From positions 1 to 64,000 of the forward strand of contig VCJN01000881.1 in the NCBI GenBank assembly GCA_006384855.1: a stretch of 64,000 bases of DNA, written 5' to 3'. How positions within the stretch are numbered: the stretch's first letter is position 1; every line of letters begins with the position of its first letter. The translations under genes and the position numbers were made by a program. Positions 25,556 to 46,141 of this stretch are shown one piece after another. Origin of the DNA: Tetraselmis striata. Taxonomy: Eukaryota; Chlorophyta; Chlorodendrophyceae; Chlorodendrales; Chlorodendraceae. The notes beneath the pieces are model-generated. The model had not been told where the DNA came from, did not search any database, and saw nothing but the letters and a program-made list of their open reading frames with translations.

Positions 25556-25594
25556 ATATATATATATATATTTATATATATATATTTATATATA
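25556..25594. repeat. AT microsatellite at left edge of the PLV
   Basis: Alternating TA with TTTA interruptions, mirrored by a longer pure AT tract at the right edge (46004-46141). It may be the outermost part of the terminal repeat or the target microsatellite. Confidence 0.7.
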
Positions 25595-26435
25595 TTTATG
25601 GCTGTGTATATGCTGTGTATATGCTATGTATTTGCTTGGAAAACAAAAACAAAAACGAAAACGAAAAACGAAAAACGAAAAACATAAATGAGTTGAGTTT
25701 TGCAAATCGCGACGATTTGCTATATAGCAGCTTGGGAACGATTATAGCAGCTTGGGAACGATTATAGCAGCTTGGAAATCGTTATAGCATAATCATCGTC
25801 GCATGATCATTATCGCATAACGCGCAAACGCGTCGGGTTTTGTCGGGTTGTTGCGAGTGCTTTGGCGCGGGTGTGGTGGAAATGACGCTGCACCCGGTGC
25901 CCGCGCGCTTTTATATGGATTTCCGCGTGCTCCGCGCGCCATTCTCAAAGTGGCATTACAGTGCCACTTAGTGCCACTTTTACTGGCTCTGCGGATTCAC
26001 GTACAAACCACGTCATCACCTTCCGCGGTCACTCCCTTTTCCAGCTCATAGTGCCACTAGTGCCACTTTTTTTAACATAATAGCATCACTATACAACAAC
26101 TTTTGTACCTAACGGTACAAGCGAGCGATAACGGGGGGCGGCCTTGTCACGCACATTGGCACTACGGGGGGTTTTCGGCGGCGGCATCATCCACGCGGTT
26201 TTCCACGTGGTCTCGCCGCCCCATGACGTGGGGGGGGGGTCTAGTGCCAGTTTGAAAGTGGCAATATTGGGTGTTCGCTCTTTCGCTCGCTCTCTCGCCG
26301 CGCCGCCGGCCTCGTTCGGTCCTTGAGCCGAAGAGCGCGTGACTCGGTGCAGTACTTAGGCAGAACACACCGAGACTCTCAAACGCACCGAGACTCTCAA
26401 ACGCACCGCGCGAGACTCTCAAACGCACCGCGCGA
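25595..26435. repeat. Left terminal inverted repeat of the PLV
   Basis: Reverse-complement match to 45131-46003. From outside in it holds TTTATGGCTGTGTATATGC, an AAAACGAAAACG-type A-rich patch, a ~20-base unit AGCAGCTTGGGAACGATTAT (two copies plus a variant), several AGTGCCACT repeats, the palindrome TGTACC-n4-GGTACA at 26104-26119 and three CGAGACTCTCAAACGCAC units at the inner end. Differences from the right copy are mainly repeat-unit number and a few bases. Confidence 0.93.
26041..26119. promoter_or_regulatory. Palindrome plus AGTGCCACT repeat module, left copy
   Basis: Read on the minus strand: TGTACC-n4-GGTACA, then TATAGTGATGCTATTATG, an A-run, then AGTGGCACT twice overlapping. The same order occurs at 45465-45540 and 40953-41022. 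It may be an origin or promoter element; function is inferred only from its repetition. Confidence 0.6.
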
Positions 26436-26448
26436 GACCGTGAGCCCC

Positions 26449-27701
26449 TCACCACACCAACACGACCTCACTAAATCGAGGAGGAGGGCCTTCGTCAACA
26501 GTCATAAGTATCCTGTAGTGTGTATAAGAACCTGGGCTTGCAACATCTCCCTGAAATAGGTATGCGTCATCAGTAGGGATGTCATCGGAATCAAAGTCCG
26601 CTTGAAAGAAGCCATTCGTACCCTTGTCTGCGGAAGGGATCACGGTGTACGACATGTTTGTGTAAACGGCAAGATCGGTCCAGTTTGAGCCGTCGTTACT
26701 TTGCCTGTAAATTGCAAAACTTGACTAGCACGCTATTCCAGGCTTCCGTATTCCAAAGCCGTACGCCGGTAACCGTGGCGGCTGCGGGAAGCTGAATGGC
26801 AAGAAAGTGAGGTGGCGACTCCGCAGAATTGGCAACCCACGCCTCGTAAGAGGCTCCGCTTTTCCGGTCGAAAGCTCGCCAACCTAGATAGTTCACAGCG
26901 GCATTACTCGACTCCGTGACGGTGTATCCCTGGTTGGTATATGCAGTCAACGCGGGCACGAGCGGGAGTGTGTCAATGTCGCGGAACGCCTGCCCGCTCC
27001 CCCCGGGGTTGTTCGTACCGGTGTGATTCATCTGAGCGCCGTTTCGGAAAATGATCCAACTCCCTAGTTGCGAGCCGTTGACGGCGCCTTGGTTCCACGA
27101 CCACCCGGCCATGGGAACCTTTGTGGAGTAATCGCCCGGTATCCTGATGCTGAACGCGAGCTTTGGCTCCGCCACCGACGCGGTCGTGCTTCCCCACGCC
27201 AACTGAGCGTACCCCGATTCTAGCGTCGAGTTCATCGTTAGTGCGGTACTGCTACCCTGTTGGACTACCGCCGTGTCTGATGCGGAGCCGTCGCCATTCT
27301 CGGGGAGCACGCCTTTGTTCTCGTTATTGTCGTACAAATAAAGTCACGTGATCGTAATTGAGAGAGTACGTACCCCCTTCTCCGGCCGCACCGTTGTAGT
27401 AGAATCTATTAATGCATTGCGTCCCAAAGGTGGATCCAGTGGAGTAAAACAACCACACGTCATCAACGGCCGCGGTCGTTATGCTCCCGAGCGGCAGAAT
27501 GACGGACTCGTTCCCAGCGACATCAATTACCTCCACCCAGAACCAATATTGCGTCCCGGGGCTGAGACCGCCCTTCACGAGGTTGGCGGCGTCGCTCGTC
27601 GATCCGACGGTGAATTGCGAGGTAATATCGTCATAGACCCCCACGGGGATGGTGTTGGCCGTGTTGTGGTAGAGCCGCACTTCGCCGATCCCGGACGCCA
27701 T
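26449..27701 (-). pseudogene. PLV fibre-like coding region (FN3-like and discoidin-like parts)
   Basis: Minus-strand coding region beginning at ATG 27701 (MASGIGEVRLYHNTANTIPV). The first part reads like a fibronectin-III/Ig-type strand pattern (LSPGTQYWFWVEVIDVAGN) similar to the FN3-like protein at 32728-33651. The middle contains NYLGWRAFDRKSG and LAIQLPAAATVTGVRLWN, resembling an F5/8C (discoidin) carbohydrate-binding fold as in phage and algal-virus tail fibres. A small frame at the 3' end (MSYTVIPSADKGTNGFF) continues the style. It is best explained as host-attachment fibre material. The region is not one continuous open frame and belongs to the fossil element. Fold assignments are by eye. 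Confidence 0.55.
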
Positions 27702-27727
27702 TTTATGTTTCGTGAGATCAAATATCG

Positions 27728-44448: not shown

Positions 44449-44770
44449 CACTCGCGAAACGTCCCTCGGGCGGGCGATGACTCCCGCGGAACGCTGTTAT
44501 CTCAGCCAGGCGTTCCTAGATGTGGCCAGCTTTGACTATAGGTATCAGCCGAAATTTGATCGCGAGTACTTTCGCGCAAAGTATCCAGGCTTTGCCGAGG
44601 ATGTAATTGACATTTTGGTGTTGTACGAGCGCGGGATCCGATTCAAAGAATTCAAGGCGCTCCTGAAAAAGGGGCGCATCCCAAAGCCGGCGCCGGCTCT
44701 CGTCGAGATCAAGCGCTATGAGGAGGGCTATTCGCCGTTCGAGGGTGGATTCGAAAGGATGAGTTCCTAG
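44441..44770 (+). CDS. PLV hypothetical protein, 109 residues
   Basis: MSSTRETSLGRAMTPAERCY start; charged, with DVIDILVLYERGIRFKEFKA. It ends immediately before the 18-base minisatellite. No family recognised; translationally coupled to the zinc-ribbon-like gene by the overlap. Confidence 0.5.
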   Translation: MSSTRETSLGRAMTPAERCYLSQAFLDVASFDYRYQPKFDREYFRAKYPGFAEDVIDILVLYERGIRFKEFKALLKKGRIPKPAPALVEIKRYEEGYSPFEGGFERMSS

Positions 44771-44773
44771 TTA

Positions 44774-45130
44774 GCGGCGAGGATGGACTTCGCGGCGAGG
44801 ATGGACTTCGCGGCGAGGATGGAGTTCGCGGCGAGGATGGAATTCGCGGCGAGGATGGACTTCGCGGCGAGGATGGACTTCGCGGCGAGGATGGACTTCG
44901 CGGCGAGGATGGACTTCGCGGCGAGGATGGACTTCGCGGCGAGAATGGAGTTCGCGGCGAGAATGGAGTTCGCGGCGAGCATGGAGTTCGCGGCGAGGAT
45001 GGACTTCGCGGCGAGAATGGACTTCGCGGCGAGAATGGACTTTGGGCGAGGATGGAGTTCGCGGCGAGAATGGAGTTCGCGGCGAGAATGGACTTCGCGG
45101 CAAGGATGGAGTTCGCGGCGAGAATGGACT
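44774..45130. repeat. 18-base minisatellite next to the right terminal repeat
   Basis: About 20 units of GCGGCGAGGATGGACTTC with G/C (GAG/GAC) and A/G variants; a shorter unit interrupts it near 45045. The period is a multiple of three with no stop word, so both strands stay open (plus Met-Asp-Phe-Ala-Ala-Arg repeats). It is not matched at the left end. Confidence 0.92.
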
Positions 45131-46003
45131 TCGCGCGGTGCGTTTGAGAGTCTCGCGCGGTGCGTTTGAGAGTCTCGCGCGGTGCGTTTGAGAGTCTCGG
45201 TGCGTTTGAGAGTCTCGGTGTGTTCTGCCTAAGTACTGCACCGAGTCACGCGCTCTTCGGCTCAAGGACCGAGCGAGGCCGGCGGCGCGGCGAGAGAGCG
45301 AGCGAAAGAGCGAGCACCCAATATTGTCACTTTCAAACTGGCACTAGACCCCCCCACGTCATGGGGCGGCGAGACCACGTGGAAAACCGCGTGGATGATG
45401 CCGCCGCCGAAAACCCCCGTAGTGCCAATGTGCGTGACAAGGCCGCCCCCCGTTATCGCTCGCTTGTACCGTTAGGTACAAAAGTTGTTGTATAGTGATG
45501 CTATTATGTTAAAAAAAGTGGCACTAGTGGCACTATGAGCTGGAAAAGGGAGTGACCGCGGAAGGTGATGACGTGGTTTGTACGTGAATCCGCAGAGCCA
45601 GTAAAAGTGGCACTAAGTGGCACTGTAATGCCACTTTGAGAATGGCGCGCGGAGCACGCGGAAATCCATATAAAAGCGCGCGGGCACCGGGTGCAGCGTC
45701 ATTTCCACCACACCCACGCCAAAGCACTCGCAACAACCCGACAAAATCCGACGCGTTTGCGCGTTATGCGATAATGATCATGCGACGATGATTATGCTAT
45801 AACGATTTCCAAGCTGCTATAATCGTTCCCAAGCTGCTATAATCGTTCCCAAGCTGCTATAATCGTTCCCAAGCTGCTATATAGCAAATCGTCGCGATTT
45901 GCAAAATTCAAATCATTTTCGTTTTTCGTTTTCGTTTTCGTTTTTGCTTTTGTTTTCCAAGCAAATACACAGCATATACACAGCATATACACAGCCATAA
46001 AAA
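45131..46003. repeat. Right terminal inverted repeat of the PLV
   Basis: Inverted match of 25595-26435. It starts inside with four GCGCGGTGCGTTTGAGAGTC units (three at the left end). It contains the palindrome module at 45465-45540 and three AAGCTGCTATAATCGTTCCC units plus a variant at about 45805-45880 (one more than the left copy). Confidence 0.93.
45465..45540. promoter_or_regulatory. Palindrome plus AGTGCCACT repeat module, right copy
   Basis: TGTACC-n4-GGTACA at 45465-45480, TATAGTGATGCTATTATG, an A-run, then AGTGGCACTAGTGGCACT. Confidence 0.6.
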
Positions 46004-46141
46004 TATATATATATATATATATATATATATATATATATATATATATATATATATATATATATATATATATATATATATATATATATATATATATATATAT
46101 ATATATATATATATATATATATATATATATATATATATATG
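46004..46141. repeat. AT dinucleotide microsatellite at right PLV edge
   Basis: About 68 uninterrupted AT units ending in ATATGGACAATTG. Much longer than its left counterpart. Confidence 0.95.

Follow-up and report, generated by a model that had tools for sequence, protein, structure and literature searches.

Integrated Polinton-like viruses of the green alga Tetraselmis striata probably entered the genome at pre-existing TA microsatellites

Polinton-like viruses (PLVs) that carry long inverted repeats together with a tyrosine recombinase (YR) are well known. In PgVV, an OLV11-like YR and TVpol-S3H occur together with long inverted repeats (PMC4642659), and a YR (YREC) occurs in 232 of 298 genomes of the cryptophyte PLV cluster C1 (PMC12220804). 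Both cases contradict a first-pass annotation of the locus described here, which had called the pairing less usual. Yutin et al. argued that YR-bearing PLVs circularise before integrating (PMC4642659). In phaeoviruses, the YR acts on two-base homology and AT-rich inverted repeats lie at attP (PMC13236599). Sequence-specific integration was not seen in Cafeteria mavirus-like elements (PMC8547959). Integrated PLVs have already been reported from the genus Tetraselmis (PMC10120064). In the present study, we analysed a window of 64,000 nucleotides (the whole stretch examined, positions 1 to 64,000 of the forward strand of contig VCJN01000881.1, assembly GCA_006384855.1) from Tetraselmis striata, which holds an integrated PLV, and we consider it probable that the family of this element was inserted through recombination that favoured (TA)n microsatellites already present in the genome. 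Tetraselmis PLVs (TsV-N1, the TVS group and integrated elements), reportedly treated by Chase et al. 2022 according to papers citing that work, share the host genus and include integrated elements.

The element resembles PgVV-type PLVs in its length of about 20 kb, its long terminal inverted repeats (TIRs), its putative YR and its association of a TVpol-like part with a superfamily 3 (SF3) helicase. PgVV, however, is described as having an attachment site between ORF3 and ORF4 and as integrating into the genome of a helper virus (PMC4642659), whereas the joints of the T. striata PLV are the ends of its inverted repeats and its target is host TA arrays. The PLVs of cluster C1 likewise have inverted repeats and a YR, with target-site duplications being rare, but no TA-array target is mentioned for them in the section consulted (PMC12220804). 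Phaeovirus YR elements are similar in their minimal host homology and in having an attP core surrounded by an AT-rich inverted repeat; they differ in that this core is a CC dinucleotide and in that they belong to giant viruses (PMC13236599).

Read at base level, the PLV proper extends from about 25,596 to 46,000 (approximately 20.4 kb), with the terminus TTATGGCTGTG at 25,596 and its mirror image at 46,000; the outer coordinates of the first-pass annotation (25556..46141) also include the flanking TA arrays. The long TIRs reported there are real. They measure about 0.85 kb and comprise several blocks between 25556-26438 and 45150-46040 that are 87-100% complementary, and alignment of the two arms gave 817 matches, 13 substitutions (10 transitions and 3 transversions; two of these substitutions lie where the inner end is ragged) as well as 6 gap events, corresponding to a divergence of 1.3-1.6%. 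Terminal inverted repeats, an element length of 14-40 kb and an A32-type packaging ATPase are among the features by which PLVs are recognised, and the element has these three; for two further ones, a double jelly-roll major capsid protein of PLV type and a minor capsid protein, it has candidates. Its ATPase matches Pox_A32 at 2.2e-16 (Pfam) and phrog_2666 at 1.9e-19, in line with the first-pass identification of that region. Neither PolB nor rve was matched among 18 element open reading frames (ORFs) scanned with Pfam, which agrees with the earlier remark that PolB and a retroviral-type integrase are not seen, and the element falls outside the Polintons/Mavericks as defined by a protein-primed PolB plus an rve integrase. 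The locus is an integrated PLV of a green alga, as had been proposed, and a known kind of provirus. What the first-pass annotation missed was the TA-array target, the empty site and the family of sister copies.

For the target, end loci of this first family were selected from TIR matches and ATPase matches in the host genome (224.1 Mb, 2903 contigs). The 65 loci comprised 46 distinct ends that reach the terminus, 7 that repeat the same end, 8 that miss the terminus and 4 without a TIR match; since the flanks of both are long TA runs, L025, itself a true end, was counted together with L011. Alternating TA was scored within 14 bp of each end, and 101,652 positions from the same flanks served as background. 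Runs of at least 8 bp were present at 43 of the 46 distinct ends versus 317 background positions (0.31%), runs of at least 12 bp at 30 ends versus 58 positions (0.06%), and runs of at least 16 bp at 17 ends versus 30 positions. An earlier, smaller count had given 28 of 29 ends. The three ends scored without 8 bp of TA were L010 and L060, which are AT-rich and not alternating at the joint, and L012, which was misplaced by the script and whose joint does carry 8 bp of TA. The readable ends of the family are thus biased to TA arrays, and the near-universal TA runs at the ends of sister copies suggest a landing-site rule for this PLV.

The ends themselves are largely constant. In a column count of 44 termini, from which L012 (misplaced), L063 and L077 (diverged termini) were left out, terminus positions 0-14 (GGCTGTGTATATGCT) were each constant in 42-44 ends, and near copies of an 11-bp unit come next. 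Outside the terminus came a variable dinucleotide and then TATATATTT, conserved in 39-43 of the 44 ends per position, giving a family end of the form TATATATTT-NN-GGCTGTGTATATGC and then the 11-bp near copies. The dinucleotide agrees between the two ends in 9 of the 16 elements with both ends read and differs in 7. An end pattern was matched exactly at 43 places genome-wide and its reversed control at 0; as the pattern itself contains ATATTT, this search counts ends of that type and cannot reveal others.

Empty sites give a second line of evidence. Partners of the left flank (24400-25540) and the right flank (46280-47500) of the window element were sought by scoring the best 40 of 776 and of 2486 candidates, respectively. 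Within these sets, each flank had one full-length partner, both in contig C2156, at 95% and 98% identity, and the other main rows were dispersed repeats with partial coverage and about 77-85% and 81-85% identity. Contig C2156 joins both flanks through (AT)5A(AT)8A(AT)12A(AT)20, with no virus between them, and stays colinear farther out, window positions 15500-17500 and 57000-59000 matching in order at 96% and 98%. The first-pass annotation had thought empty alleles worth looking for; this assembled contig is either such an allele or a long duplicate, and the virus-free site is a TA array either way. In a second case, paralogous repeats, e.g., in C1761, contain a TA tract whose two sides match, by eye, the flanks of the copy in C2716. 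The left flanks of the copies in C1728 and C1533 are ends of dispersed repeats whose paralogues diverge at the joint, so they are uninformative on empty sites.

We infer the role of the YR, the circle and the crossover point as follows. The virus's own YR would bind the end units, and the two virus ends, joined in a circle or paired, would make up a symmetric, lox-like site whose core is TA. A host TA array of any locus would supply the matching core sequence, so that exchange would be possible at many places; the pairing of a TA core with host TA arrays is proposed by analogy with the phaeovirus YR. That this PLV lineage integrates genome-wide into TA microsatellites via such a lox-like TA-core joint, and that other YR-bearing PLVs may obey the same rule, is a proposal whose chances we consider evenly balanced. 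The putative YR is open in the window copy and in many other copies of the family, and a metagenomic relative, P0071, has the GLR, DIRHS and terminal HS...Y region in common with it. The catalytic set R...K...R...H...Y was judged by eye against a consensus, with the customary first H of box II missing. A profile comparison (hhalign) with five Escherichia coli YRs aligned just the R-H-Y region, weakly (probability 1.7%, E 0.029), as against probability 0.1% and E 0.56 for an unrelated control. The assignment as a YR, based on the motifs and on this weak alignment in the expected region, is likely, not proven.

Several observations weigh against integration into TA arrays by a YR. No Pfam, PHROG or PDB match names the YR as a recombinase (NCBIfam was outside the search). 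The termini of L063 and L077 are diverged, and 4 end loci lack a TIR match. Of the 8 loci without the terminus, three (L018, L028, and L067) stop at contig ends. The other five (L054, L070, L073, L075, and L085) are not at contig ends: they begin within the repeat and border on other sequence, its outer 108-253 bases being missing or replaced. The roughly 9 bp of TATATATTT hardly vary and could be part of the element, and the dinucleotide beside GG differs between ends in the 7 of 16 elements mentioned above. Slippage of TA hides any duplication and the crossover point. Finally, the ends were picked from TIR and ATPase matches, and some represent one insertion on two contigs.

Among the alternatives, passive capture fares best, although we regard it as unlikely. 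Here, host repair or TA-TA homology would have inserted linear virus DNA where fragile TA arrays had broken, with no part played by a YR. TA arrays can form cruciforms and break, the few TA units on the virus ends could anneal, and the diverged ends and those without the outer repeat would also fit. On the other hand, most terminus-reaching ends agree to the base, whereas repair would often trim them; the open YR frame of the window copy also speaks weakly against capture, as open frames are likewise seen for the collagen and methyltransferase genes. It is less likely still that the TA tract is the end of the virus, expanded later by slippage, and that the target is not TA. The constancy of TATATATTT would be expected in that case, and the left junctions in C1728 and C1533 show only 8 bp of TA followed by non-TA sequence. 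Nevertheless, C2156 and the paralogues of the C2716 site have TA tracts without a virus, the runs at many ends are in the longer classes of at least 12 and at least 16 bp, and the AT content at 12-24 bp outside the ends exceeds the value for host DNA in the window (39%) at 32 of 32 ends of 16 elements (lowest value, 42%). An assembly misjoin or contaminant is hardly credible even for a draft of 2903 contigs in which long TA arrays are hard to assemble, given that many contigs hold sister copies with the same ends and that a public gene model, P0072 (jgi/Tetstr1/465469, Tetstr1 standing for T. striata), is 100% identical to the window locus over residues 1-539 and 540-675, its third part, scored at 89% as BLAST ran past the join, being otherwise identical by eye. 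The reading we prefer is recombination that favours TA microsatellites already in place. The features of the element are listed in Table 1.

Table 1 Features of the integrated PLV and its junctions in the window.
Feature	Coordinates	Strand	Basis and remarks
TA-rich host tract, left junction	25556..25595	.	TA array unbroken at the equivalent point of contig C2156
Left terminal inverted repeat	25596..26438	+	Starts TTAT-GGCTGTGTATATGC, then near copies of the 11-bp unit TGTGTATATGC
Possible surface/fibre gene (name tentative)	26449..27701	-	ORF fragments split over frames
A32-like packaging ATPase	28185..28865	+	Pox_A32, phrog_2666; last residues out of frame vs sister copies
Major capsid protein (MCP)	30455..31714	+	Homologue family; last sixth out of frame vs intact sister copies
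Candidate minor capsid protein	31730..32698	+	By position only; end out of frame
Surface protein candidate, fibronectin-like stretch	32728..33651	+	Pur_ac_phosph_N 0.0017, fn3 0.033, both below cut-off
DNA cytosine methyltransferase-like protein	33893..34654	-	phrog_757 3e-12; PF00145 2.1e-4, just below cut-off
Putative tyrosine recombinase (YR), open frame	34745..36094	+	Motifs WGLRAEL, DIRHS, HRHS, SYW
Collagen-repeat fibre protein	36109..38838	-	PF01391 6.7e-12; PHROG tail-fibre families
Second candidate minor capsid/penton protein	39047..39667	-	By look only
C2H2 zinc fingers then nuclease-like domain	39953..40893	-	zf-H2C2_2 8e-19; split over frames; subset of copies
TVpol-like part plus SF3 helicase	40905..43628	-	In-frame stop between parts, frame change near C-terminus
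Zinc-ribbon protein candidate	44017..44448	+	DZR_2 5.9e-4, below cut-off
18-bp tandem repeat array beside right inverted repeat	44717..45185	+	About 20 copies
Right terminal inverted repeat	45150..46000	-	Block comparison, arm alignment
(AT)69 array, right junction	46001..46141	.	Base-level reading

In the replication module, the SF3 helicase part matches D5_N at 4.6e-7 (Pfam), and the ORF upstream shares its frame, a single stop codon separating the two. This upstream ORF, for which no family model match was found, is taken for the TVpol part as described for PgVV, by its position and a motif. The intact 833-aa homologue P0073 (15 members) covers both parts in one piece. The first-pass annotation was right in combining an SF3 helicase with a TVpol-like part, and the helicase lies behind that part. 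The zinc fingers followed by a nuclease-like domain resemble, by eye, a natural zinc-finger nuclease; the domain was also named by eye, family and PDB profile searches having given no useful match. Besides the window, the domain is matched at 8 places with 87% identity or more and, along a longer stretch, at 70% at a ninth place in C2679, and a 69% relative is present in C427 and C2417. Many other copies match only the neighbour gene of the domain, and zinc-finger segments are numerous in contig C229.

Among the virion-module genes, the MCP had 62 homologues at E ≤ 0.001, the top one being 97% identical across 83% of the query. Its profile gave one weak match to a solved structure in PDB, 8h2i MCPv1 (E 0.028), a capsid protein of PBCV-1. 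The two candidate minor capsid or penton ORFs, considered for the penton-like protein of the first-pass annotation, had no match in Pfam or PHROG and chance-level matches only in PDB. For the possible surface/fibre gene, the single fragment scanned (26699-27235) had no Pfam match.

The first-pass annotation had also deduced a recent insertion from the similarity of the terminal repeats. In its favour, the arms differ by 1.3-1.6%, less than the divergence between the window contig and C2156 (2-5%), and the colinear contig, 95-98% identical, is without the element; on the other side, several genes are interrupted. Compared with intact sister copies, the frame is lost over the last sixth of the MCP and towards the end of the candidate capsid gene; relative to its intact homologue, TVpol-SF3 is interrupted by an in-frame stop and changes frame near its C-terminus. 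In the ATPase, the final residues deviate; of the eight copies compared, L005 and L006 likewise end prematurely. In the region of the ATPase, 2225 comparable columns contain 11 substitutions and three 1-base insertions that are private to the window. Some one-base changes may be due to assembly error. Judged from these interrupted frames, the window copy is decaying.

Sister copies are numerous. A search of the genome with the ATPase yielded 115 match rows, of which 32, including the window, span most of the query at an identity of at least 85%. Because the same insertion lies on two contigs in some cases (C2765/C1735, by eye, and C2156/C217), independent insertions number fewer than 32. The end loci L025, L026, L019, and L033 have related host flanks (C454, C1946, and C2052) with insertions at neighbouring TA tracts, by eye, possibly representing a hot spot or an allele pair. 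In C2274:6484-12726, two family ends face each other 6.2 kb apart, perhaps as a shortened derivative. The same genome holds a second sizeable PLV family, whose ATPase is about 51-61% identical and whose own YR is about 31-37% identical; following it for 2.5 kb past the YR in four copies reached no element end. Relatives in IMG/VR gave no confirmed locus, and phage records gave no match. Outside the element, 66-bp direct repeats (97%) lie 2.9 kb apart in window positions 47687-50673 and bracket an ORF (49371-49958) that matches Phage_int_SAM_1 (5.1e-5); together they are perhaps another YR element.

A paper of December 2025 describes the precise mechanism of PLV integration as unknown (PMC12721341). 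The literature searched contained no recognisable report of TA arrays as a PLV target, Chase et al. 2022 lying outside this search; the TA-array target rule appears to be new, and it is supported by the position counts and the empty sites. If the rule is true, these viruses use a common simple repeat as their attachment site, and target-site duplications would rarely be seen in YR-bearing PLVs because TA slippage would remove them. Protist genomes contain PLVs in abundance, and the readable ends of this family, its empty sites of two kinds and its strong target bias together amount to a testable rule.

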